From Candidatus Binataceae bacterium (lineage in GTDB: Bacteria; Desulfobacterota; Binatia; Binatales; Binataceae), in NCBI GenBank assembly GCA_030038355.1, contig JASHPB010000023.1, forward strand, positions 1 to 64,000: DNA of 64,000 nucleotides, read 5' to 3'. Below the pieces are notes generated by a model. It did no database searches, was not told the origin of the DNA, and saw nothing but the letters and a program-made list of their open reading frames with translations. This document shows, piece by piece, positions 1-13,050 of the stretch. The position numbers and the translations under genes were made by a program. The first letter of the stretch is position 1, and each line of letters starts with the position of its first letter.

Positions 1-193
1 TCATCCAGCGCTCCATCTGCAGATCGAGGAGCAGAAGGTCGCAGGGATTCGCGGCCAGCGTCGCGTCGAGCTGATCGGCGCGTTCGACCTCGGAAACCAC
101 CTCGATATCGGATTGCAGCAGCAGGAGCGATCTAAGCCCTTGGCGGAAAAGCGCGTGATCGTCAGCGATACTCAGACGAATGGGCATCGGCAT
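1..193 (-). CDS. Response regulator, N-terminal receiver (partial, runs off window start)
   Basis: Reading the minus strand from 193 gives a protein beginning MPMPIRLSIADDHALFRQGL and ending at the window edge with LLLLDLQM. This is the beta1-DDH loop and the phospho-acceptor Asp region of a NarL/LuxR-type receiver domain. The start ATG follows immediately after the TAG stop of the histidine kinase at 194-196, so the two are transcribed together as a two-component pair. The output domain lies outside the window, so the DNA-binding type is inferred only from the common pairing with HisKA_3 kinases. Confidence 0.85.
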   Translation of the reverse strand, partial: MPMPIRLSIADDHALFRQGLRSLLLLQSDIEVVSEVERADQLDATLAANPCDLLLLDLQMERWM

Positions 194-1318
194 CTAGGAA
201 TTGGGCATCGTAATTTCGAGGCGCGCGGCGCCATTTTGTGCGAGCACAATTTCGCCGCCGAGTTCGGCAACGCGCGACGCGATTACCCATGGTGGATCAT
301 CGCTATCCGTGAAACCGATGCCATCGTCCTCAATGATAATATGGATTGCACCCTGCACCGTTTGCAATTCGATACTCACGAGACTAGCCATCGCATGGCG
401 GCGTACGTTGCGCAGACCCTCGAGGACGATCTGCAGGAGATGCTCACCCGTCGACACGCGTCCGGTGAAATTCGCATTCAGGTCAAGCCGAGGATCGGAA
501 CTGTCCTTCAAGGTTTCACGCGATACATCGCCCTCGACTCCGGCCAGCGAGCGGATATACACGCGTACCTCGTCATACTCGCGTGCTACGCCGCGCTGCA
601 ATTCGGTCAGCTCGCGAAGCGCCTGCTCGGGACGTTCTCTCGCGAGCAGCTCGCGGCAGGTCTCGAGACGGAGGTTCACACCGGCGAGCGCCTGAACGTA
701 TCCATCGTGCAGAGAGCGCGCGATCGAATGACGCTCCGCGCGCGTCTCGAGCTCGCGGATTCGTAGTTCAAACAATGCGCGCTGCTGTCCGAAGAAGCCG
801 ATTAGATAGCCGGCGATTGCGAGATACACGGCGCGCATCACGTACTGACTGTTGAGCCGATCCGCAAATGCGATCACGAGCAAATAGAGCAGCACGCTCG
901 ATAGGGTTATAGCGATGGTTGCCTTCAATGACGCGCGTACTCCGACGGCGAGAATGGCAAATACGAAAAAAATGTAGGCGGGACTGGTCTGGCCCTCGGT
1001 CAGGAACGCGACCATCGTTGCGAAGAGAAGATCGAGCGCGATTGAAACCGCCTGCAGATTTCGGATCGCGAAACCGATCCGCAGCGCAAAGTAGAATGAG
1101 ACGCTGTACGTCAGATGACAAAGTAGCGTGACGAGCGCGACGGTGGTCAAATGAAAAAGCCCGCCCGTTGTTGTGGGGTCGACATATAGCGTGAGCATCG
1201 CGAGCAACGACAACACGATTCGTGCGCGTGCCACATCAACATCGAGGGCATGAAATTCGTTCGGCTTCATCTTCGATTGCGGCCTCGCGTACACAATTGC
1301 CACTGAGGGCACAATCAA
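194..1318 (-). CDS. Membrane sensor histidine kinase (HisKA_3/NarX-like)
   Basis: A 374-residue protein. The first ~180 residues hold several hydrophobic segments (about 33-48, 55-75, 90-107, 112-127, 133-150, 160-178) with no recognisable periplasmic domain. A dimerisation/phosphoacceptor helix follows, with the H-box RSLHDGYVQALAG and His at ~204. This is a variant of the ELHDGVGQ motif of the HisKA_3 family. The HATPase_c domain has an N-box (LRNVRRHA, ~302-309) and a G1 box (DDGIGF, ~331-336). It would autophosphorylate and pass phosphate to the adjoining receiver protein at 1-193. The signal sensed is unknown. A second in-frame Met at residue 17 is an alternative start. Confidence 0.85.
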   Translation of the reverse strand: MIVPSVAIVYARPQSKMKPNEFHALDVDVARARIVLSLLAMLTLYVDPTTTGGLFHLTTVALVTLLCHLTYSVSFYFALRIGFAIRNLQAVSIALDLLFATMVAFLTEGQTSPAYIFFVFAILAVGVRASLKATIAITLSSVLLYLLVIAFADRLNSQYVMRAVYLAIAGYLIGFFGQQRALFELRIRELETRAERHSIARSLHDGYVQALAGVNLRLETCRELLARERPEQALRELTELQRGVAREYDEVRVYIRSLAGVEGDVSRETLKDSSDPRLDLNANFTGRVSTGEHLLQIVLEGLRNVRRHAMASLVSIELQTVQGAIHIIIEDDGIGFTDSDDPPWVIASRVAELGGEIVLAQNGAARLEITMPNS

Positions 1319-1361
1319 TTCGACAAGCCGCGCGACGCTGACGCAAGGCCCGCATTGGCGA

Positions 1362-3131
1362 CTATGAGCCGCCCGGGATAACCAGCGTTGGCTTGGTCCG
1401 CGGGCGCGAGAAATCGAACATGTTCAGCAGATCGCCGATAGCTGGTCCGTTGGTTGGAAGATAGGGATTATCCGGAGCGGCGATCGGATTGGGCAACCGG
1501 TCGCGGCTTCGATCCGAAAGCGGATGAATATTCCAGTTCGCTTCGATGAATTTGAGTATCGAGGCATGATCGCAATAGGTGTGGTCGATCGCGCCCGGCC
1601 TCACATAAGGTGAAATCACGAGCAGAGGAATGCGCGTGCCGTCGCCGAAAAAGTCTAGAGTCTGAATATATCCGGTATCGTAATAGCCGCCGCCTTCGTC
1701 GAAGGTAATCATGATGGCCGAGTCGGCGAACAGTTTCGGCCTGCTGATAATATTATTTGCAATACTCAGTACAAAATACTCATATGCCGACATCGCGGAG
1801 TTGGATGGATGAGCCGAGTAGGGTTCGTAGGGCCTGATGAACGAGACGGCGGGCAGCTTGCCCTGCGCAGCGTCGGCATAGAATTTCGACATGCCGGTTA
1901 TGTTTTTGCGCAGTGCCGTAGTCATCACGTTTTTACTGAACTGCAATGGATTACAGATCGAGCACCACGCATCGTTGGCGCCGCCCGGCTGCAACCCGCC
2001 GATGTAGTATTTCCATGATACTCCGGCGCGAGTCAGTGCTTCCCCGATATTGGGTAACGTCTGCGGAGGCAGAGTATAAGGATGCGCGTTTACATCGACG
2101 AGTGAACCATCCGGGTTGTATGCAGGACCGTAGTTGTTGACCAGGTAATAATGATCTCGATCGCAGTTCGGCGCGCGATGCCGCGCACGCAGGTAGTCAC
2201 GTATCGGAGCGACTCCCGCGCTCGCCGGGTCTGAGCAATTCACGTAGGAACCGCTCCTGTAGCCATCGCGCTGGTACCAGTTGTTCGATCCTGGCCAGGG
2301 ATCGGGGTCTTCGATCAGGTCATCGGGCGGTTTCATCGCGTTGCCATTGCCGTCGCTATAAAATGCAACGTCTCCCGTACCAAGGTAGATAAAGCTGGCG
2401 CCGGTGCCGCCCATGATGCCCTGGTGGAAGTTGTCATTGAGCGCATAGTGGTCGGCGATAAATTTGAACACGGGTGCGTCGCCAGCGCTCATGTTATAGA
2501 AGCCCATCGAGATCCCACCCTGCGTGGTGCTCTGATCGGTAAAAGGCGAGGGCGGTGGTTTGCCGCCACTGCCCATTCCGATAGTCACCGCATCCCAGAT
2601 GAATAGATCGTTGCGGCCCTCGTCGTATTGCTGCCACATCTGAAAGAACCGATGAACCGGATCGCCGGTGAAGGAGAGCTGGTATGCAGTATACTTGGTG
2701 ATTTGGAATGGCCCATCGGGCAGATTTGCCGGGAAGCGAGTATCGGGAACATTGATAGGCCGGCCGAACGAAAAATTGGTATTCGGCTGCGGCAAAGCGG
2801 TGTACGGCGTAGTTCGGCGCGGCGTAATGGAGTATCTGTCCGTTTCCGACGCCTGCCATTGGCGCGCCTTGTCGAAGTGCTGACCAGGTGAACCGTCGAG
2901 ATTGACTATTCCTTCGGATAGTAAATTAACTACCTTTTGACCGCGATGAGGTTGATAGACACCGAACAGATTGTCGAAGCTGTGATTTTCGCCGACGATT
3001 ATGAACAAGTGCTTGATTGGAGTGACGGTGGGGTGAGGCGCGGTCGACCCGGCAATCGCTATTGCCGCAGTCAGGCAGACCGACAGTAGCGTTCCGAGAC
3101 CAACGCTTGATCGCCCATAGCTCATAAGCAA
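1362..3131 (-). CDS. Secreted phosphoesterase (phospholipase C / acid phosphatase AcpA family)
   Basis: A protein of about 589 residues with an N-terminal hydrophobic signal segment (GTLLSVCLTAAIAIAGS). The family motif HLFIIVGENHSFDNLFG follows, then late metal-site motifs such as MITFDEGGGYYD and DHASILKFIEANW near the C-terminus. These mark the bacterial non-specific phospholipase C/AcpA group, exported enzymes that cleave phosphoesters. An AGGAG lies 8 nt before a TTG codon at 3131, and an ATG at 3125 is in frame. A longer version from 3179 lacks an RBS and is less likely. Substrate (phospholipid or other phosphomonoester) cannot be set from sequence. Confidence 0.85.
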   Translation of the reverse strand: MLMSYGRSSVGLGTLLSVCLTAAIAIAGSTAPHPTVTPIKHLFIIVGENHSFDNLFGVYQPHRGQKVVNLLSEGIVNLDGSPGQHFDKARQWQASETDRYSITPRRTTPYTALPQPNTNFSFGRPINVPDTRFPANLPDGPFQITKYTAYQLSFTGDPVHRFFQMWQQYDEGRNDLFIWDAVTIGMGSGGKPPPSPFTDQSTTQGGISMGFYNMSAGDAPVFKFIADHYALNDNFHQGIMGGTGASFIYLGTGDVAFYSDGNGNAMKPPDDLIEDPDPWPGSNNWYQRDGYRSGSYVNCSDPASAGVAPIRDYLRARHRAPNCDRDHYYLVNNYGPAYNPDGSLVDVNAHPYTLPPQTLPNIGEALTRAGVSWKYYIGGLQPGGANDAWCSICNPLQFSKNVMTTALRKNITGMSKFYADAAQGKLPAVSFIRPYEPYSAHPSNSAMSAYEYFVLSIANNIISRPKLFADSAIMITFDEGGGYYDTGYIQTLDFFGDGTRIPLLVISPYVRPGAIDHTYCDHASILKFIEANWNIHPLSDRSRDRLPNPIAAPDNPYLPTNGPAIGDLLNMFDFSRPRTKPTLVIPGGS

Positions 3132-3180
3132 AACTTTCACTCCTAAGATCGTTTGCGCATGCCGCCGGGGCGCGGCCACG

Positions 3181-3198
3181 GATCTACGAAAGTAGATC
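3181..3198. promoter_or_regulatory. Perfect 7-bp inverted repeat in divergent promoter region
   Basis: GATCTAC-GAAA-GTAGATC lies between the phosphoesterase gene (minus) and the arginine decarboxylase gene (plus). The position suits an operator or a 5'-UTR hairpin of the phosphoesterase. No regulator is recognisable nearby. Confidence 0.35.
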
Positions 3199-3335
3199 GC
3201 GACCGATTCCTCGGCAACGGAACTTTGTTGCGGTTCTGTTACCGCACGCGGTTGCGTGCCGGGGAGTAGAGGTTAAAATCGGCGGGCAGAAATTCGCTGT
3301 GCTCCGAGACCGGCGGCGGATGCAAGGAATAATCG

Positions 3336-3914
3336 ATGGGTCCAATTGGCAGCGGGATTTTTCTCACCAAGGGTGTCGGCAAGCATCGGGAGAAGCTCAC
3401 CTCGTTCGAGCTCGCGTTGCGCGACGCGCGAATTGCCGAGTTCAACCTGGTGCGAGTGAGCTCGATTTTTCCACCCAACTGCAGAGTCGTTTCGATCCAG
3501 GACGGGCTGAAGACGCTGACGCCCGGACAAATCGTTTACGCGGTGATGTACGACAACTCGACCAACGAGCCGCATCGCCTGGTAGCGGCGTCGGTCGGCC
3601 TCGCCATACCGGCGGATCCCAAGCAGTATGGCTACCTCTCGGAGCACAAGAGTTTCGGTGAGACCGACGAACGCGCCGGCGACTATGCCGAGGATCTTGC
3701 GGCGACGATGCTCGCGACGGCACTCGGCGTCGATTTCGATCCCAACGTCAGTTACGACGAGCGCAAGGACGTGTGGCGCCTCTCGGACAAGATCGTCAAG
3801 ACGCGCAACATCACGCAATCGGCCGTGGGCGATCGCGATGGGCTTTGGACGACGGTCGTGACCGCGGCGGTTTTCGTCAATCCGCCGGAAACCAAGAGCA
3901 GCGCGACCACCTGA
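3336..3914 (+). CDS. pdaD: Pyruvoyl-dependent arginine decarboxylase
   Basis: A 192-residue protein. The motif [12 protein letters not shown] holds the Ser42-Ser43 pair at which the proenzyme of this family self-cleaves to form the pyruvoyl group. The N-terminal piece becomes the beta chain and the rest the catalytic alpha chain. The product converts arginine to agmatine and CO2, the first step of one polyamine route. An AAGGA lies 9 nt upstream of the ATG. Slightly longer than the archaeal enzyme (~165 residues). No agmatinase, agmatine deiminase or spermidine synthase is next to it, so its pathway context here is unproven. Confidence 0.88.
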
Positions 3915-3928
3915 CCGCGCGTGCGACG

Positions 3929-4942
3929 CTACGCCTCGTAAAAGACGTCGACGATAGCGGTCCGATATTGGCTGAGCCGCGCCGCGGATAGAAAGTACTG
4001 CGGCGGCGAGAGCGTAAGAGAATCAGCATAGCGCCACATATTGTCAACGCGTTCGCGCGCTTCGTCGAGCGTGCCGGCGATCGCGAAAGTCGTCACCATT
4101 TCATCTGGAATCGCGCGCAGCATCGCCGTGGTATCGCCGCGCGCAGCAGCTTCGGCTGCGGCGCGCGCCGCGGCGCCGAATCCATGATCGGTGTAGTACT
4201 TCTCGTATTGCGCAACGCTGGCGTAGAAGGCGACGGTGCCGCGCATGTCATCGATCGCCTGTTTGCGATCGCGCGCCATCGCAACGTAGTTCCAGAGGTT
4301 CACATGAAAACTGCTTCGCGCGCGGCCGCTCGAGGCCAATGAATCAGCGAGCGTGCGATCATATTCCTCGATCTTGCTGAGCGACCACACCGGATGTCCC
4401 ATCAAGCCGTCCGCGATTTGTCCCGCGACGACGACCGTGTTTCGAAAGAGCGCCGGCAGGTAGATCGGAATTGATGCGCGAACGGGCTTCCGCGCTCGGA
4501 ACGCGCGCAGATCGAGCTTGTGATACTCGCCATCGATTCGGCCGAGCTCGCCGCTGTGTCCCTTCCCCATGATTGCGCGCACTGCGTTAACGACTTCGCG
4601 CAGATGCGCGACTGGTTTGCCATAGACGATTCCATGGATGTTCTCGTTCCAGGTCCGCACGCCCGTGCCAAGTCCCAGAACCACGCGGCCGCCGCTGATT
4701 CGATCGAGGTCGAGCGCGCTCAGTGCCGTTTCCATCGGGCTGCGGGTAAACGCGAGTGCGATTCCCGAGCCGAGTTTGAGTCGCGTGGTCGCCATCGCCA
4801 TCGCGGCCAGTGTGGGAAACGGCGGCGAGTGCAGTTGGGGCACCCAGACTCCGTAGAGTCCGAGGTCCTCGAAGCGTTTCATCAATACAGCGATTTCGGC
4901 GGCGGGCATCGCCTGAACCATTTCCCAGTATTCGTGTTTCAT
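3929..4942 (-). CDS. LLM-class (probably F420-dependent) oxidoreductase
   Basis: A 337-residue luciferase-like TIM-barrel protein. Typical segments are LGLYGVWVPQLHSPPFPTLA, TRLKLGSGIALAFTRSP and DRISGGRVVLGLGTG. These resemble the F420-linked LLM group rather than bacterial luciferase itself, but FMN use is not excluded. The ATG lies only 4 nt downstream of the ctaG stop on the same strand, with an AGGA upstream. It may therefore be the last gene of the respiratory operon, although a functional link is not evident. Substrate unknown. Confidence 0.8.
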   Translation of the reverse strand: MKHEYWEMVQAMPAAEIAVLMKRFEDLGLYGVWVPQLHSPPFPTLAAMAMATTRLKLGSGIALAFTRSPMETALSALDLDRISGGRVVLGLGTGVRTWNENIHGIVYGKPVAHLREVVNAVRAIMGKGHSGELGRIDGEYHKLDLRAFRARKPVRASIPIYLPALFRNTVVVAGQIADGLMGHPVWSLSKIEEYDRTLADSLASSGRARSSFHVNLWNYVAMARDRKQAIDDMRGTVAFYASVAQYEKYYTDHGFGAAARAAAEAAARGDTTAMLRAIPDEMVTTFAIAGTLDEARERVDNMWRYADSLTLSPPQYFLSAARLSQYRTAIVDVFYEA

Positions 4943-4946
4943 GTCT

Positions 4947-5828
4947 TCAGGTCCTCGCGGCGAGCTTGAGCTCGCGATCGCTGCGCGATCCGATGCGTGG
5001 CGGAAGGATCATTCCTCGCGGTGACAGATAGCGCATCAGGATCACCGCACCCGGAACGAGATAGAAGAAGGAAGCCGGCACCCACATTATAACTCCGGCA
5101 ATTATCTGATCGTCGAGCGGCGAGATTCCCGCAACTCGCGGTGCGGCCGCATACATCGGATATAGCAGTCGGCCGAGAAAGGTGAGTATTGCCGCGAGTG
5201 CCGTGTTCTGCAAATCGGCGAATAGCAGGTAGGGAACCATCGTCCACCGCGGCCATCGCGCGATGCTGGGCCAGGGTTGAATGACGGGCCACCAAAACAT
5301 CAATGCGGTACAGAAAAAACAGGCATGCTCGAAGGCGTGCGCAAGCGGCGATCGGAGCGCGAGCTGAAAAGCCGCCGGCGTATGCCATCCCCAGGTCGCA
5401 ACCGCGAAGGCGAACCAGCATACGAGCGGCTCAGTCAGCCAGTTGAAAATTGCTCGTAGAGATTGCGACCTGGAAATCGGGCCGACCACAGACTTGGCAA
5501 CGATGACAGGCAGGCCGCGCACGAGCGGAATCAAAGGAGCGCCGGCGAGGAGCAACGCGGGGGCGACGATCATCAAGAGCAGGTGCTGAATCATATGCAC
5601 CTGGAGCAGCAGATCGTCGAGTTCCTCGAGCGGCGACGCGATGGCGATGAAAAGAGTTGTGATGCCGCCGAGAAAGAATCCGAGGCGTCGCATTGGGAAT
5701 CGCTCGGGCATCTGGCGATGCAACCGCACCAAGCCGCGCGCGTACACCGCAGCGATGATCAGGAGCGTCGCAATCCGCGGCCACGGCGGCGACCACGATT
5801 CAACCGCGGTACGAATCAGAGCATCCAC
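4947..5828 (-). CDS. ctaG: Cytochrome c oxidase assembly factor, CtaG (caa3) family
   Basis: A 293-residue polytopic membrane protein with about seven hydrophobic segments. It carries the family pattern around LLLQVHMIQHLLLMIVAPALLLAGAP and CWFAFAVATWGWHTPAAF. Members of this Bacillus-type CtaG family support assembly of caa3-type oxidases, probably in CuA/CuB metal insertion. The start is 3 nt after the stop of the cytochrome b gene, and it closes the terminal-oxidase block of the operon, consistent with that job. Confidence 0.85.
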   Translation of the reverse strand: MDALIRTAVESWSPPWPRIATLLIIAAVYARGLVRLHRQMPERFPMRRLGFFLGGITTLFIAIASPLEELDDLLLQVHMIQHLLLMIVAPALLLAGAPLIPLVRGLPVIVAKSVVGPISRSQSLRAIFNWLTEPLVCWFAFAVATWGWHTPAAFQLALRSPLAHAFEHACFFCTALMFWWPVIQPWPSIARWPRWTMVPYLLFADLQNTALAAILTFLGRLLYPMYAAAPRVAGISPLDDQIIAGVIMWVPASFFYLVPGAVILMRYLSPRGMILPPRIGSRSDRELKLAART

Positions 5829-5831
5829 GAA

Positions 5832-7328
5832 TCACTGCGCAGGCGAATGATGCGAGTCGACGTCGGAGATCGGCTGCTCAGGCTTCACCGAATTGCGTGC
5901 GCCGAGCTCGCTCCGCGGATGCATCGTGTTGAGGAACGCGACGATTGCGTTGACCTCGGCGGGGCTAAGATTCTTGCCGTAGGCCGGCATGTTGCCGCCG
6001 CCTTGAATGATCTGCCGCACGATCTGATCGGGCGTGAGTCGGGTCGCGACGTCGTCCAAAGCGGGACCGCGCATTCCGCCTTCGCCACCGAGCGCATGGC
6101 AGTTGCGGCATTGCTTGCTTTGAATCAGAATGGCGCCCTGCAACTCGAGCGGAGTGCGGCCCTTCACGTAATCGACGGGAGTCGGCGCTTCGCTCCAAGC
6201 TTCCATTTTCGGCGACCATGGCGAGAAGGTGCCAAGCCAGGTGAGCGTGCCAATAGTAGTGAATGCCAGAATGACTATTACGACTGAGATTGGGCGTCGT
6301 CGCCAACTCTTTTCGCCGGTGCCCGAGATAAAAGGGAGTGCGAACAAAAGTGCAATCACGATCGGCGGGCCGACCAGCATCAGGAAGGTCTCGCTCCATG
6401 GCGGCAGGAGCGCGAAGACCGCGAACAACCAGAGGAAGAAGAAGTCCGGGCGTGGGACCGTTTTAATGATCGTCGGATCGGGCTGGCCATTGGGGCCGAA
6501 GGGTCCCGAGATCGCTGCAACGACTAGCAGCGCAAGAATGATGATGCCGGCGAATACCATGTCCTTCTGCGCGGCAAATGGAAAAAACGGCTCACCATCG
6601 CCGGTGACAGTCCGCTCGTAATCTTGCAAATAGTGTTCACGAGTGACTATTCGACCGGGCATTGGATACTCATTGATTCCCAACTTGAGAACCAGGAACA
6701 GATGGAGTGCGACGAATCCAATGAGTATTCCGGGAATAACGAAAACGTGCAGCGCGAAGAATCTTGAGAGGGTTTCGGCGGCGATGATCGGTCCGCCAAG
6801 AATGAGATGTACCAGCTTGAAGCCAACGAATGGAAAGCGTCCAACGATCGACGCGCCGATGCCGAGTCCCCAATAGGCATCCTGATCAAATCTCAAGACC
6901 TGGCCGGTGAACGCCATGCCAAGCGTGCATAGCAGGAGGACGCATCCTGCCACCCAGGTGAGCTCACGCGGATACTTATAGGCGCCGAACAAATAGACCT
7001 GCGCCATGTGCACGAACATGAGGCCGACCATGAAGTCCGAGCCCCAGCCGTGAAGCGCACGCAGATACCATCCGAGCGGCTGAGTATAGTTCAGGTATAT
7101 GAGGCTCGACCAGGCGCCTTCGGCCGACGGAGTATAGACGGTGGCGAGGCAGATCCCGGTAACGATCTGCATAATAAAGATGACGAAGGTGGCGCTGCCG
7201 AAGACGTACCACCAGCTTGCTGAGCTGCGCGGCACGGGGTGGGCAGCGACTTCGGATAAGGTAGAACTGAGACCAAGCCGCAGCTCGAACCAGTCGCCGA
7301 TCGCTTTGGTCCAATCTCGTAGTGGCAT
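5832..7328 (-). CDS. qcrB: Cytochrome b with fused C-terminal cytochrome c domain
   Basis: A 498-residue protein. The N-terminal half has the cytochrome b/b6 four-helix core with haem-ligating His pairs (around LHGWGSDFMVGLMFVH and FALHVFVIPG...VALH). The middle is the subunit-IV-like part. The usual Qo-site PEWY motif reads RPDFFFLW, an unusual variant. At the C-terminus a haem c motif, CRNCH, sits in a small monohaem domain followed by GNMPAYG...LSPAEVNAIVAFL. It oxidises (mena)quinol and passes electrons to the Rieske protein and cytochrome c. It lies between the Rieske gene (24 nt gap) and ctaG (3 nt gap). Confidence 0.92.
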   Translation of the reverse strand: MPLRDWTKAIGDWFELRLGLSSTLSEVAAHPVPRSSASWWYVFGSATFVIFIMQIVTGICLATVYTPSAEGAWSSLIYLNYTQPLGWYLRALHGWGSDFMVGLMFVHMAQVYLFGAYKYPRELTWVAGCVLLLCTLGMAFTGQVLRFDQDAYWGLGIGASIVGRFPFVGFKLVHLILGGPIIAAETLSRFFALHVFVIPGILIGFVALHLFLVLKLGINEYPMPGRIVTREHYLQDYERTVTGDGEPFFPFAAQKDMVFAGIIILALLVVAAISGPFGPNGQPDPTIIKTVPRPDFFFLWLFAVFALLPPWSETFLMLVGPPIVIALLFALPFISGTGEKSWRRRPISVVIVILAFTTIGTLTWLGTFSPWSPKMEAWSEAPTPVDYVKGRTPLELQGAILIQSKQCRNCHALGGEGGMRGPALDDVATRLTPDQIVRQIIQGGGNMPAYGKNLSPAEVNAIVAFLNTMHPRSELGARNSVKPEQPISDVDSHHSPAQ

Positions 7329-7352
7329 GGCGAGCGCGCCGTTGATGCGCCT

Positions 7353-7892
7353 CTAGGCCTGCGGTTGGCCGAGGGTCGGGAGCTCTCCCGCTCGCACCCA
7401 GAGCCGTCCTGCCTCAACCTTGTGTTGGTATCTATAGAGCGGCCGCGGCGGCGGTCCGGAAGCTTCCCTACCATCGGCATAGTAAACGCCGCCATGACAC
7501 GGGCACATGAAAAGCCCCGATTCGGCGAACCATCGCACGGGGCATCCGAGATGCGTGCAGTTGATCGCGAAGATGGTGAAATTGTCGCCGCTCTCCCGGC
7601 GCACCCAGCATGGAATCTTCGAAGTTTCGCCGTCCCAGGGTTTTCTGAAGGGATTTACATACTCGGCCAGTCTCGTCTCATTTTCGGGAAAATCACTGAG
7701 GTTGCCGATAGGTATCCATCTCAGCCATTCGATGCGGCGCGCCGGTGAAAGGACGTACCCGATAACTGGAATCGCAAACAATGCGATCGCGATGGCGTTG
7801 AGGAAGACCGCAAGGCGAAGCAGAAAAGTTCTTCGCGAGGTCGATTCTTCGGCGCCCGAGTCCTTGTTATTGACTATTTCGTCCATACTCAT
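7353..7892 (-). CDS. qcrA: Rieske [2Fe-2S] subunit of cytochrome bc complex
   Basis: A 179-residue protein with one N-terminal membrane anchor (LLRLAVFLNAIAIALFAIPVIGYVL) and a Rieske domain. The cluster-binding boxes are CTHLGC and CPCHGG, which also hold the two disulfide cysteines typical of high-potential Rieske centres. A run rich in charged residues (SRRTFLLR) before the anchor resembles the start of a Tat-type signal. It takes electrons from quinol at the cytochrome b Qo site. It sits between the dihaem cytochrome c and cytochrome b genes in the operon. Confidence 0.93.
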   Translation of the reverse strand: MSMDEIVNNKDSGAEESTSRRTFLLRLAVFLNAIAIALFAIPVIGYVLSPARRIEWLRWIPIGNLSDFPENETRLAEYVNPFRKPWDGETSKIPCWVRRESGDNFTIFAINCTHLGCPVRWFAESGLFMCPCHGGVYYADGREASGPPPRPLYRYQHKVEAGRLWVRAGELPTLGQPQA

Positions 7893-7909
7893 TCCAATTG
7901 CTAGTCAAT
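7869..7909. promoter_or_regulatory. 8-bp inverted repeat (ATTGACTA/TAGTCAAT) around the qcrA start
   Basis: ATTGACTA (7869-7876) and its exact complement TAGTCAAT (7902-7909) flank the qcrA start codon and its short intergenic gap. The same 8-mer TAGTCAAT occurs in the array upstream of ctaC (12879-12886). It may be an internal regulatory site or a coincidence: the 8-mer also occurs inside the phosphoesterase gene. Confidence 0.25.
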
Positions 7910-8624
7910 TACGCTGTGCATACGATGCGCCGCGCGGCATAGCCGGGCGCTTCGACGCGAGCCACGCGACGACATCGGATACTTGTTGCGCCGTCATCGG
8001 CTCGCCTGCCAAATAATCCTTCCAGTCCGGATGACCAAGGTCGGGGCGGCCCGCAATGACTATTGCACGCAAATCCTGGTCGCTCGTCAGAGCCAGGAAC
8101 GAACCGTTGACGATCGATCCAGGTGCGGCGCCCCCTTTGCCGTCGGCGCCGTGACATGACGCACAAAAGGTTGCGAAAACTTTAGTGCCCTGAGCCGGAT
8201 CACCTGGGCCATTGGTGGCGTAGGACGGCGCGCCTTCAGCGGCGCCGTCGCGAGCCCATTGCTTGCGCATGCCGCCGACGATAATTGCGATCTGTTCATC
8301 GGTCAGAGCGCCGCCAGCGCTAGCGGCGAACGGAGGCATCGCGGTGCCATCGACTCCGCGCGCGACGATGTTGGTCAACCTCTTGTCGTCGACGATGCCC
8401 AGGTAGACGGGGTTGTTGAGCGCGAACGCCGCGCCGAACTTTCCGTCAACGCCATGACAGCCGGCGCAGTTCTCATTATACAGTTCCGAATAGTTAGTTA
8501 CTGCTGACGGGCGAAGTGGGTAGTCGGCGCGTGCAGGGCGGCCCGGCAGCGAGTTGCATGCTGACAGCCCGAGCGCGAGCATCGACGAGCTCAACGCCAA
8601 TCCCCAGTGCCTTCTCGCGGACAT
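7905..8624 (-). CDS. Dihaem cytochrome c lipoprotein
   Basis: A 239-residue protein. The signal peptide ends in the lipobox LSAC (Cys ~23), so it should be lipid-anchored on the periplasmic side. Two class I haem c motifs, CAGCH (~53-57) and CASCH (~150s), sit in tandem domains. Each is followed by a distal Met-type ligand segment (GTAMPPF; the second near GEPMTAQQ). It likely carries electrons between the bc complex and the oxidase, or is a tightly bound subunit of a bc-aa3 supercomplex. It overlaps the upstream membrane protein gene by one base (TGATG), implying translational coupling. Confidence 0.9.
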   Translation of the reverse strand: MSARRHWGLALSSSMLALGLSACNSLPGRPARADYPLRPSAVTNYSELYNENCAGCHGVDGKFGAAFALNNPVYLGIVDDKRLTNIVARGVDGTAMPPFAASAGGALTDEQIAIIVGGMRKQWARDGAAEGAPSYATNGPGDPAQGTKVFATFCASCHGADGKGGAAPGSIVNGSFLALTSDQDLRAIVIAGRPDLGHPDWKDYLAGEPMTAQQVSDVVAWLASKRPAMPRGASYAQRN

Positions 8625-9457
8625 CAGGCGTCGCCCTTCTGATCGTCATTGGCACGGTAACGCGCCTCGATACCTGTTCGAACGGCGAATGGCAGATGCT
8701 GAAGGGTGCGCACTTTCTCAGTGCGATCGACTACGTAGCCGGCGACGGCGCCAAAGGCTATCTGGCAAAGAATGAACCAGCGCCACTCGATTCTCAGATC
8801 AAGCACCGGGTTGATCACGTCGAGTGTCGCCCACAGGAGTCCCGTCCATAACAGCGGCGCCACGATCGCCGCGAAGAACGCGGGATAGCGCGGAAACATC
8901 GGCAGCATCACGCCGTACAGCAGGCCGACCAGCAATGACGCGGTTGCGTGGATCAGTAACGCTATCGCCAACGTCTCGGGATTGAACGCCGACAGCGTTG
9001 CCGTGGTGGCTTGCGCCAAGCTCGGCATCGCGGTCGCGGCCAGAATGTTAATCGTATACCACGGGCTGCCGTGAAAGATGATGCCCTGGACAACGGCCAG
9101 CACGGCCATCACCACGCCACCGGCGATGCCACCCTTGATGCCGGCAGTGTAAGGAAAAATCTCGAGCGGCAGAACGGCGCGGTTGAGCTGCTCGCCGACT
9201 TCGAGGTAGGCGACGGGGAGTTTCGCCTGAACCACGACGACTGACTCAGGCGTCACGGTTACCATTTCTTCGTGCTCAGTTGGAAGAACTTCGCTGAACC
9301 AACTGACGGCGCCCGCTATTGCAATGACGATCCCGACGATACTAACGGACACGCTGGTTACCACTCCGGCGAAGGCGAGCGTGATACCAAGCGCGAACAG
9401 CATCGGCGCGGCGCTGGGCGCCGGCAAGCGCACTTCGTTTTGACTGTTCTCTACCAT
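8624..9457 (-). CDS. Polytopic membrane protein of unknown function in the bc/cox operon
   Basis: A 277-residue protein with about six to seven hydrophobic segments, including two near the N-terminus (about 18-60) and further helices from ~110 to ~240. The N-terminal 12 residues and C-terminal ~30 are polar. I see no haem, copper or iron-sulfur motif. It lies between ctaE (13 nt gap) and the dihaem cytochrome c gene (1 nt overlap), so it is co-produced with the oxidase. It could be an accessory or assembly subunit, or take the place of the missing small subunit IV. Not recognised as a named family. Confidence 0.7.
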   Translation of the reverse strand: MVENSQNEVRLPAPSAAPMLFALGITLAFAGVVTSVSVSIVGIVIAIAGAVSWFSEVLPTEHEEMVTVTPESVVVVQAKLPVAYLEVGEQLNRAVLPLEIFPYTAGIKGGIAGGVVMAVLAVVQGIIFHGSPWYTINILAATAMPSLAQATTATLSAFNPETLAIALLIHATASLLVGLLYGVMLPMFPRYPAFFAAIVAPLLWTGLLWATLDVINPVLDLRIEWRWFILCQIAFGAVAGYVVDRTEKVRTLQHLPFAVRTGIEARYRANDDQKGDA

Positions 9458-9470
9458 TGCAATGGGTCAA

Positions 9471-10073
9471 TCAACGGCCGATTACATATACAGTTGTAAA
9501 CACTACGACCCAGACCGCGTCGACGAAGTGCCAGTACCAGGAGAGTATTTCGGTACGTTCAGCATAACGGCGATCCATGTAGCCGAGCAGAGTGAGAATA
9601 CTCACAAACAGAATCAGGATCAGCCCGATCGTCACGTGCAATGCATGCAATCCCACGAGTGAGAAAAAAGTAGTACCAAACAAATTTGTACTAATAGTCA
9701 GTCCGTCGTGGTAGATTAGTTCCTGCCACTCGAGGCCGGTACCAATCATGAACTCGAGGCCGAGGGCAAGTGTCACAAGCCACCACAGCGTGAAGGTTCC
9801 AATCGAACCGACGCGCAAAGCACGCACGGCGAAAACGATCGTGATGCTGCTCGACAATAAACAGATGGTATTGATTATGGGCGGCGAGAGGACATCCTTG
9901 GGGTACGGGCCGTTCAGGCTTTTGCCGATATAGAAGAGATAGGCGACCACGAAGATCGCGAAGAACGACGACTCGGTGAGAATCAGCAAGAGGATCCCCA
10001 CTCTGCCTTTTTCGGGCAGGCTGCCTTTCCATTCGATCTGCGATTGGTTCGCGACGGCCGGCGCGGCAGCCAT
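9471..10073 (-). CDS. ctaE: Cytochrome c oxidase subunit III
   Basis: A 200-residue, five-helix subunit III of the short form (lacking helices I-II of the seven-helix mitochondrial type). Diagnostic parts are GRVGILLLILTESSFFA, the GLHALHVTIG segment and ILSWYWHFVDAVWVVVF. The start at 10073 is chosen because GAGGA lies 8 nt upstream. An in-frame extension up to 10331 would overlap ctaD heavily and is not protein-like. Subunit III stabilises the catalytic core and proton uptake. It lies 19 nt after ctaD. Confidence 0.92.
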   Translation of the reverse strand: MAAAPAVANQSQIEWKGSLPEKGRVGILLLILTESSFFAIFVVAYLFYIGKSLNGPYPKDVLSPPIINTICLLSSSITIVFAVRALRVGSIGTFTLWWLVTLALGLEFMIGTGLEWQELIYHDGLTISTNLFGTTFFSLVGLHALHVTIGLILILFVSILTLLGYMDRRYAERTEILSWYWHFVDAVWVVVFTTVYVIGR

Positions 10074-10092
10074 TATTGTTTCCTCGTAGGAA

Positions 10093-11775
10093 TCATTCGT
10101 ACTTCGAGTCCGGATCGTCCGGGTGCTTGAGATCCCACAGTGGTCTGCGGCTTCGGACCACCGGTTGTTCAACAAAGTTGTACGCCGGGGGCGGCGATGT
10201 CGTCGCCCATTCCAGCGTCCATGCATCCCACGGATCGTTCCCCGCCTCTTCGCCCGAGCGCAGCGAGCGCACCACGTTGACAAACAGGCAGAGTACAGCA
10301 GCCGCTTGAACCAGTGCTCCAAACGTCTCAATAAGATTCAGCGTGTCGAGGCCGCGACCGGGTTGATAGGTATATATTCGCCGCGGCATGCCATGCAGAC
10401 CGGCAAAGTGCATCGTATCGAAGGTGAGGTGGAAGCCGATGAAAAACAGCCAGAAGTGCCACTTGCCAAGATGCTCATTCAGCATTTTTCCAGTGGCCTT
10501 GGGGAACCAATAGTAAACCGCCGCGAATATCATGAATATGATCGCGCCGACCAATACGTAATGGAAATGAGCAACGACGAAATAGGTATCCGTCAGTTGC
10601 CAATCGAACGGCGCGACGGCCAACATGATGCCGGTGAGACCCGCGATCAGGAATTGCAACAGAAACGCAACCGAGAACAGCATCGGCACCTTGAAGCGAA
10701 TCTTCCCGCCCCACATCGTGCCTATCCAGTTGAAGATCTTGATGCCCGTCGGCACTCCGACCAACATCGTCGAGGTCGCGAAGAATGCATTGCCGGCGGG
10801 CGTCATACCGACTGCGAACATGTGATGCGCCCACACGCTCATGCTGATGAAGCCGATCGCCACCGTCGCTGCCACCATCACTTCGTAGCCGAATATCACC
10901 TTGCGCGAGAAGACCGGAATGATTTCTGAAGCGAACCCAAAGGCAGGAATGACAAGGATGTAGACCTCAGGATGGCCGAAGATCCAGAAGAAATGCTGCC
11001 ACAGTACCGCCGAGCCGCCGGCTTGCGTATCAAAGAAGTGGGCGCCGACGAAGCGATCGAGCAGGAGCATCACCTGGGCCGCACTCAGCGGCGGGAGCAC
11101 GATCAAGATCATGAAAGAGACTACAAGCGACATCCACACCAGCACCGGCATCTTCCTGAGAGTCATGCCCTCGCATCGCATCGTGAAGGTCGTGGTGATG
11201 AGATTGAGTGCGGTCGCAGTCGAGCCGACGCTGGTCAGGAAAATACTCAGTATCCAATAGTCAGTGCTGTTGCCACGCGAGAAAGCGCGCTCGGTCAACG
11301 GCGCGTAGGCAAACCATCCGACATCGGGCGCGCTGCCCGCTCCGTATAGACCGTTGCCGCCGATGTAACTGAAGTAAAGTAGTAATGCTCCGAATAGCCA
11401 GAGCCAGAAACCGAATGCGTTGAGACGCGGGAAAGCCAGGTCGCGCGCGCCGATCATCAACGGCACCAGGTAGTTGAAGAATCCCGTCAGGATCGGCATC
11501 CCGACCAGGAACACCATCGTCGTGCCGTGCATCGTCATCAGGCGGTTGAACATGTCGGGCGGTACGATGCCGGCGTTGGGAATCGCGAGTTGCAGCCGAA
11601 TTGTCATCGCCTGCAAACCGGCGACGATGAAGAAGACCAAGCCGCCTGCGATGTACATCAGGCCGAGGCGCTTATGATCGACGGTGACGACCCACTGGTG
11701 GATTCTGTCGAGCAGAGGAAGGGATACCGCGCCTTCAGCGCCGAGCGGAATTCGTTGTTCGATACTGCCCGCCAT
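10093..11775 (-). CDS. ctaD: Cytochrome c oxidase subunit I
   Basis: A 560-residue, 12-helix haem-copper oxidase catalytic subunit. Visible landmarks are LMTMHGTTMVFLVG (low-spin haem ligand region), WQHFFWIFGHPEVYILVIP (CuB His, the cross-linked Tyr and the D-channel Glu of A1-type enzymes) and VVAHFHYVLVG (haem a3 and haem a ligands). It reduces O2 to water and pumps protons in the cytoplasmic membrane. It starts 11 nt after ctaC. Confidence 0.97.
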   Translation of the reverse strand: MAGSIEQRIPLGAEGAVSLPLLDRIHQWVVTVDHKRLGLMYIAGGLVFFIVAGLQAMTIRLQLAIPNAGIVPPDMFNRLMTMHGTTMVFLVGMPILTGFFNYLVPLMIGARDLAFPRLNAFGFWLWLFGALLLYFSYIGGNGLYGAGSAPDVGWFAYAPLTERAFSRGNSTDYWILSIFLTSVGSTATALNLITTTFTMRCEGMTLRKMPVLVWMSLVVSFMILIVLPPLSAAQVMLLLDRFVGAHFFDTQAGGSAVLWQHFFWIFGHPEVYILVIPAFGFASEIIPVFSRKVIFGYEVMVAATVAIGFISMSVWAHHMFAVGMTPAGNAFFATSTMLVGVPTGIKIFNWIGTMWGGKIRFKVPMLFSVAFLLQFLIAGLTGIMLAVAPFDWQLTDTYFVVAHFHYVLVGAIIFMIFAAVYYWFPKATGKMLNEHLGKWHFWLFFIGFHLTFDTMHFAGLHGMPRRIYTYQPGRGLDTLNLIETFGALVQAAAVLCLFVNVVRSLRSGEEAGNDPWDAWTLEWATTSPPPAYNFVEQPVVRSRRPLWDLKHPDDPDSKYE

Positions 11776-11786
11776 TGTCTCTCCGT

Positions 11787-12830
11787 CTAATGAAGCGTGA
11801 CCAGGTATGCGACCAAGTCGTCGAGGTCCTTCTGGCTCAGGTTCATCGCGGGCATCAGGGCCCCGGGCTTGATGGTGCTTGGATCGTGCACCCAGGTTTT
11901 CAGATTGTCCGGAGTGTTCATCGCGGCGCCGGCGCCGATTGTCTCACGTGCCATCAAATGGGTGAGATCGGGACCGAAACGGCCCTCCGCGGCGGTACCT
12001 TGAACTACGTGACAGTTGACGCATGCGGTGGTTTCGAAAATCTGGCGGCCGTGATCGACCGATGCGTCTGCAACCGCCCGTTGCTTTTGCGCTGCGATCC
12101 ATCGATCGAAATCCGGCCGCGGCTCGACGACCACACGAAGCAACATTAGCGCGTGTTCAGTACCACAGTATTCGGCGCATTGTCCGAGATAGATGCCCGG
12201 CTGATGCGGATCGATCCACATGGTGTTCTTGCGATTGGGAATGACATCGGTTTTTCCGGCAAGGCGCGGCACCCAGAAGCTATGCGCGACATCAGCCGAC
12301 TCGAGATCGAGGAACGTTGGTGTCGGATGCGCGCGATCACTGAGTGGCACGTGCAATTCATTCGCCGTTACGACGCCGAGTTCCGGGTACCTGAACTCCC
12401 ACCACCACTGGTGACCGATCACGTGAACTAGAATCGAATCGGGCGGACGCGGCGCGGCCTGGACACTGTAGATTGTGCGCGCAGTCGTCAGGATAAGAAC
12501 GAACACGATCAGAATAGGAACCGTGGTCCATGCAAACTCAATCGGATTGCTGCCATAGACCTGCGCGGGTTCGCGGCCGTCGTCGCCGGGGGGTTCACGA
12601 AATCGGATGATGCTGTAAACGACCAGGCCAGCGACGATCACAAAGATCGCGGCGCAGACGGTGATCGTAAAGTACGCGACCGTGTCGATTTCGTTAGCCG
12701 GAGTTGAAACAGGAGTGAAGATGGTGGGAGGTGGGATCTTTGCGTTGCTTGCTCCCATCCCCCAATCGTTGGCGAACGCGATGATCGGCGATCCGACCAG
12801 GCCAATCAGAATTGGAAGCCAACGTTTCAT
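11787..12830 (-). CDS. ctaC: Cytochrome c oxidase subunit II with fused cytochrome c domain
   Basis: A 347-residue protein. It has a signal peptide, two transmembrane helices (about 52-75 and 100-118), and a cupredoxin domain with HQWWWEFRYPE and the CuA site CAEYCGTEHALM. A C-terminal haem c domain follows with CVNCH (~268) and the Met-ligand region PGALMPAMN. This caa3-type fusion takes electrons from cytochrome c or the bc complex. It is the first gene of the minus-strand respiratory operon. A GGGACGG RBS precedes the ATG, and the operator-like array at 12853-12911 lies just upstream. Confidence 0.95.
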   Translation of the reverse strand: MKRWLPILIGLVGSPIIAFANDWGMGASNAKIPPPTIFTPVSTPANEIDTVAYFTITVCAAIFVIVAGLVVYSIIRFREPPGDDGREPAQVYGSNPIEFAWTTVPILIVFVLILTTARTIYSVQAAPRPPDSILVHVIGHQWWWEFRYPELGVVTANELHVPLSDRAHPTPTFLDLESADVAHSFWVPRLAGKTDVIPNRKNTMWIDPHQPGIYLGQCAEYCGTEHALMLLRVVVEPRPDFDRWIAAQKQRAVADASVDHGRQIFETTACVNCHVVQGTAAEGRFGPDLTHLMARETIGAGAAMNTPDNLKTWVHDPSTIKPGALMPAMNLSQKDLDDLVAYLVTLH

Positions 12831-12852
12831 GCACCGTCCCGCGCGGTGAATT

Positions 12853-12911
12853 ACATAGTCAAGTCACGCTCGACTATGTAGTCAATAGGAGGTGAATAGT
12901 CATTTGACTAT
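12853..12911. promoter_or_regulatory. Array of TAGTCA/TGACTA inverted repeats upstream of the respiratory operon
   Basis: Within 59 bp are ACATAGTC (12853-12860) with GACTATGT (12872-12879), overlapped by GACTA-TG-TAGTC (12872-12883). Then comes a perfect palindrome ATAGTCA-TT-TGACTAT (12896-12911). Five copies of a TAGTCA-type half-site in alternating orientation, starting 23 bp before the ctaC start codon, strongly suggest an operator for a dimeric regulator that binds cooperatively. I cannot assign the regulator: the half-site does not match FNR, Fur, Rex or NsrR consensus. Confidence 0.6.
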
Positions 12912-13050
12912 CCGCGGAAAAGCACCGGAAGCGAGTAGTGCGGATCAACCGGTCCGCGCTCTGGCAACGGCCCGAATTATATAGGCAGGCTGCTACCGAG
13001 CGTCAAGGGTAACTGATGCCAGCGGCCTACGATTTGATTACGCGCTGATT

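Follow-up and report, generated by a model that had tools for sequence, protein, structure and literature searches.

The described systems closest to the locus considered here are the boxes of LiaR/CesR/VraR and NarL, the operators of Rrf2-family proteins and structured 5′ leaders. NarL prefers heptamers in a 7-2-7 arrangement (PMC4549865), and the CesR/LiaR box has the sequence TCAGHCTnnAGDCTGA (PMC4447274). As to the respiratory chain itself, a survey of the Binatota found alternative complex III in all of its genomes (PMC8262859).

In this study, the DNA upstream of the main respiratory operon was analyzed in a window of 64,000 nucleotides (positions 1 to 64,000 of contig JASHPB010000023.1, assembly GCA_030038355.1) from an uncultured soil lineage of Candidatus Binataceae, for which we know of no characterized regulatory site. 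An initial annotation of this window had described five alternating TAGTCA/TGACTA half-sites immediately before ctaC and had taken them as a regulator's cooperative binding sites for control of the respiratory chain. The genome of the window (G000) was compared with G001 (JASHQJ010000108.1, Candidatus Binataceae bacterium JOPF072), which is the only genome of the same genus in the comparison, and with genomes of other genera. Genome-wide motif counts rest on pattern searches.

The array and its two dyads

The array is situated in the msrA-ctaC intergenic region, with both genes on the minus strand, and its end is 22 bp from the ATG of ctaC (12830, minus strand). The operon and the elements of the array are as follows.

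4947-11775, minus strand: remainder of the operon, in the order ctaD, ctaE, a membrane protein, cytochrome c, a Rieske protein, cytochrome b fused to cytochrome c, and ctaG
11787-12830, minus strand: ctaC, head of the operon, cytochrome c oxidase subunit II with a cytochrome c domain
12852-12880, minus strand: dyad P3, coding strand TACATAGTCGAG-CGTGA-CTTGACTATGTA, a 12-bp RNA stem with one G-U pair
12879-12884, plus strand: middle TAGTCA half-site in the inter-dyad spacer, degenerate in the sister species G001
12894-12913, minus strand: dyad P2, coding strand GGATAGTC-AAAT-GACTATTC, an 8-bp RNA stem with one G-U pair

A cytochrome bc-type complex is encoded alongside a caa3-type oxidase at 4947-12830. 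Binataceae genomes from other genera, six in all, have the same gene set (cut short in two of them by the end of the fetched stretch), with ctaG displaced in G019.

Within 12853-12911, TAGTCA occurs in four exact copies, at 12856 (plus), 12879 (plus), 12897 (plus) and 12905 (minus), and the fifth half-site, at 12871-12876, is the degenerate CGACTA. The count of five therefore stands, with one member degenerate and an order (+ - + + -) that is not strictly alternating. The perfect palindrome ATAGTCA-TT-TGACTAT is present exactly as described, at 12896-12911, and the density is indeed far above chance: a stretch of about 59 bp never held more than two hexamers in 20,000 simulated 220-bp regions of intergenic or whole-window composition. 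The sites resolve into two dyads with an extra half-site in between; the array is real, but its second, longer dyad had been overlooked. This dyad, P3, has the form TACATAGTCAAG-N5-CTCGACTATGTA, with arms of 12 nt that are 92% complementary, and is perfectly paired and kept in G001. P2 includes the perfect palindrome and is also kept in G001. The spacing from AGTC to GACT is unequal, N4 in P2 and N11 in P3, and the distance between the centers of the dyads is 37.5 bp in G000 and 40.5 bp in G001.

Across the whole window TAGTCA was found 18 times, against 7.9 expected. The coding DNA of the operon region (1-12850) holds 11 copies, against about 2 to 2.5 expected, which places the hexamer second among 2080 in over-representation; this excess is not seen in the remaining window. 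Functional coding sites within the operon were considered and rejected, with three of six alignable sites kept in the sister species, approximately as expected at 83% identity.

Conservation and genomic distribution

Both dyads are found at the equivalent place upstream of ctaC in G001, where the ctaC protein is 89% identical. The dyad cores are 100% conserved: ATAGTCAAATGACTATTCAC, comprising P2 and its flank, is identical at 20 of 20 positions and ACTACATAGTCGAG at 14 of 14, and the sequence is fully identical from the 3′ arm of P3 through the ATG. Most positions of the inter-dyad spacer differ, with a 3-base indel in addition, and the region 5′ of P2 is divergent with long indels. Because identity is nearly total in the dyads and the translation initiation region, against 58.5% at fourfold-degenerate sites of ctaC (96/164) and diverged spacers, both appear to be under selection, which supports a cis-element of the ctaC operon that selection has maintained. 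Among relatives, the element is present before ctaC in the one genome of the same genus; the motif is absent from the ctaC upstream regions of six Binataceae genomes of other genera (G023, G019, G029, G004, G020 and G003), whose ctaC proteins are 66-76% identical.

A covariance model of P2 and P3 searched over 57 genomes recovered just two leaders, those of ctaC in G000 and in G001, with no second copy; the sole other match had an E value of 0.17, at noise level. Neither this model nor the exact dyad patterns found the element before other respiratory operons of the genome. Three sites in G000 match the exact pattern ATAGTC-N2..16-GACTAT, and two of these belong to the ctaC leader. The third, GCCAAATAGTCATTGACTATTCGGC, is kept in G001 between convergent gene 3′ ends, and the dyad at this 3′-3′ junction, GCC(A/C)AATAGTCATTGACTATT(C/G)GGC, is conserved (G001:C85:22322, G000:C329:31289). 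It is flanked by what we take, from their sequence, to be a DUF4340-like gene and acpS. A parS-like sequence, TGTTTCACGTGAAACA, lies about 30 bp from it, perfect in G001 and with one mismatch in G000. The looser pattern TAGTC-N3..12-GACTA gives ten sites in G000, and those common to G001 are the two ctaC dyads, an rrf2 promoter and the 3′-3′ junction. Two further genomic matches common to both species were dismissed as coincidence, since both fall within coding genes, one for an MMPL/RND-type transporter and the other for a metallophosphatase-like protein, whose protein sequence is conserved.

Because the shared sites comprise only these, the claim of a respiratory regulon fails at this sensitivity, and neither the 57-genome search nor the ten-site survey supports control of respiration in general. 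What remains of the initial annotation is a cis-regulatory element, shorn of regulon and cooperativity. The element is real, conserved and operon-specific and is probably functional, if ordinary in kind, and the two palindromes are probably a switch for the ctaC operon alone rather than for respiration at large.

Leader RNA or DNA operator

A promoter-like block, CCCTTGACGCTCGGT(A/G)GCAGCCTGCCTATATAATTCGGGCCGTTGCCAG, lies upstream of the array; it contains TTGACG-N17-TATATA and shows one difference in 49 bp between G000 and G001. The features that bear on transcription and translation are as follows.

12831-12851, minus strand: translation initiation region, fully conserved in both species, with a weak Shine-Dalgarno sequence, GGGA, six bases before the ATG
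12923-12941, minus strand: hypothetical 5′ strand of a helix that would close over the ribosome-binding region, on a weak basis
12978-13006, minus strand: predicted sigma-70-type promoter, TTGACG (13006-13001), 17 bp, TATATA (12983-12978)

A consensus promoter scan gave no score for TTGACG-N17-TATATA at 12978-13006. Read as a promoter, as we predict from its sequence, the conserved block would place the array at approximately +60 to +118, and the dyads are probably transcribed because this block lies upstream of them. In G001 the block overlaps an inverted repeat, AGCGTCAG-TTGCCC-TTGACGCT, about 183-206 bases before ctaC, which is imperfect in G000.

From G000 to G001 the arms carry one substitution each, G to A in P2 and T to C in P3. 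Both replace a G-U pair with a Watson-Crick pair on the mRNA strand, and in both G000 is asymmetric as DNA; by our estimate, chance alone among transitions would yield two out of two such changes in about a quarter of cases. A consensus fold of the two species (RNAalifold) has 35 pairs in a single architecture, four with one-sided compatible changes, none broken and, with two sequences only, none with two-sided compensatory changes. The leaders fold with z-scores of -2.9 and -4.7 relative to shuffled sequence; since any palindrome folds as RNA and is expected to give such scores, these values do not separate RNA from DNA. The leader has no match in Rfam, either at the gathering threshold or at E up to 1. 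A terminator or attenuator was ruled out, there being no T run. The initiation region can pair with 12941-12923, and the resulting closing helix folds alike in both species, but one inner pair is lost in G001. It was set aside as a device over the ribosome-binding site: despite the common fold it does no better than shuffled controls, 11-17% of which match it.

The reading that we tentatively place first, with rather less than even confidence, takes the array as a cis-regulatory element that is specific to the genus and to the ctaC operon, located in a probable 5′ leader between the promoter-like block and the ribosome-binding site. P2 and P3 would fold in the mRNA as two adjacent hairpins just before the translation start, the closing helix perhaps shutting over them and hiding the Shine-Dalgarno region, and the hairpins would thereby determine how strongly the long respiratory transcript is translated or how stable it is. 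A protein, a ligand or temperature are candidate triggers. We lean slightly towards such hairpins near the ribosome-binding site because the promoter-like block precedes the array, the arm substitutions involve G-U pairs, and the variable spacing and phasing of the dyads are no obstacle to RNA hairpins. The translation initiation region is invariant between the species and, furthermore, the additional conserved dyad sits at a 3′-3′ junction, a place where one would not expect a promoter. Evidence for RNA is thin, and two sequences cannot decide the matter: the promoter is itself a prediction, compensation is one-sided, the closing helix is no stronger than its shuffles, and the stems are conserved in sequence beyond pairing, with one core common to both, which suggests sequence recognition. 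The bolder proposal of a new leader RNA family of one Candidatus Binataceae genus, whose two hairpins would have interchangeable arms and govern translation across the whole bc-caa3 operon, is unlikely.

Sequence recognition is the strength of the second explanation, a serious contender that we place only just behind, likewise below even, in which the dyads form a double DNA operator (half-site approximately ATAGTCRA) downstream of the promoter, where a putative transcription factor would repress or road-block the operon. This is the interpretation of the initial annotation without its wider regulon. The ATAGTC/GACTAT core is common to both dyads and to one further conserved dyad, the ctaC cores are invariant between the species, the interval between promoter and start codon is a usual position of an operator, and P2 is a 7-2-7 inverted repeat. 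However, one dimeric regulator would be expected to find equal spacing in all copies and constant phasing, and the spacing is N4, N11 and, at the 3′-3′ junction, N3, with a 3-bp difference in dyad distance between the species; that one regulator binds cooperatively is accordingly not supported. Both arm changes, moreover, break the dyad symmetry in G000 with RNA pairing kept, the further dyad is placed at a 3′-3′ junction instead of a promoter, and no regulon is seen. A DNA mode of action had been assumed, and position and substitutions suit a transcribed leader at least equally. The likelihood given to the operator takes in a special case, improbable in itself, in which a LiaR/NarL-type response regulator, from a kinase-regulator pair downstream of the operon, would be the factor.

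2-193, minus strand: NarL/LiaR-type response regulator, first 64 codons, cut by the contig end
194-1318, minus strand: HisKA_3 sensor kinase, with the regulator a candidate regulator pair

On the same strand as the array, the kinase gene is located about 11.5 kb downstream. The full-length regulator is encoded at G000:C83:11-631, with an ammonium-transporter-like gene after it, an arrangement shared with G001, and the regulator's G001 ortholog carries receiver and LuxR-type DNA-binding domains, with VraR and then NarL as the best PDB matches. P2 (12896-12911) fits the 7-2-7 heptamers preferred by NarL (PMC4549865) and shares the 16-bp layout and AGTC/GACT core of the CesR/LiaR box (PMC4447274), but the outer bases of the box mismatch and P3 is not 7-2-7. 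In G023, furthermore, the pair is unlinked to the operon, beside other genes on other contigs. Heptamers near the pair were dismissed, as they are not conserved between G000 and G001; G001 has a single ATAGTCA beyond the regulator gene, and G000 does not keep it. The pair suits the 7-2-7 dyad and nothing further ties it to the site, so that it is a candidate only.

Two other explanations are far weaker. It is very improbable that the site belongs to an Rrf2 (CymR/IscR-like) regulator with TGACTA/TAGTCA half-sites in its own promoter. In both species the rrf2 promoter retains identical hexamers, and TGACTATCTTAGTCA precedes the Rrf2-family gene; the gene divergent from it is, by sequence, presumably a siroheme nitrite/sulfite reductase. 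Across most of 27 Binataceae there is a footprint, roughly GTAACTTAGATGACTATCTTAGTCAACTAATTAGATGACTAATTAAGTCAGCTATT, about 40-110 bases before the rrf2 start codon, through which a CymR/IscR-like protein with three cysteines likely regulates its own gene. However, these promoters use GACT-N5-AGTC, often as two sites 25 bp apart, an arrangement that neither ctaC leader contains, and the AGTC-N4- or N11-GACT of the ctaC type is absent from all rrf2 promoters examined. The rrf2 site is family-wide whereas the ctaC element is confined to the genus, and Rrf2 was rejected as its regulator: the hexamers match, but half-site order and spacing do not. We find it equally hard to credit that the dyads are chance palindromes without function. 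Simulated sequence and other parts of the window also contain dyads with arms of at least 11, and TAGTCA is over-represented in the operon coding DNA too, but the hexamer cluster was never reached in simulation and both dyads survive unbroken in the sister species amid flanks that have diverged and acquired indels.

Significance and comparison with known systems

If the element is controlling, one 60-bp sequence sets the amount of both the cytochrome bc and the caa3 oxidase complexes in an uncultured soil lineage. It also offers a test case for an RNA leader versus a DNA operator, which make opposite predictions for simple arm mutations. Its wider interest is limited because it is confined to one genus.

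The gene content of the operon contrasts with the Binatota survey genomes, which have alternative complex III (PMC8262859), in combining a bc-type complex with a caa3-type oxidase. The element itself resembles the Rrf2-family (IscR/CymR-like) operators in its TGACTA/TAGTCA half-sites, as seen in the Binataceae rrf2 promoter, and departs from them in the opposite order and other spacing of these half-sites before ctaC. Compared with the LiaR/CesR/VraR and NarL boxes, likened here from sequence alone, it differs in the outer bases and in the spacing of P3, and agrees in the 16-bp 7-2-7 repeat of P2, with AGTC/GACT at the positions of the CesR box (PMC4447274). Structured 5′ leaders (riboswitch-, thermosensor- or protein-controlled) differ from this one, which has two sequences only and no Rfam family, ligand or T-run terminator; in common with them, it places hairpins in a probable leader beside the Shine-Dalgarno sequence, with the pairing conserved.
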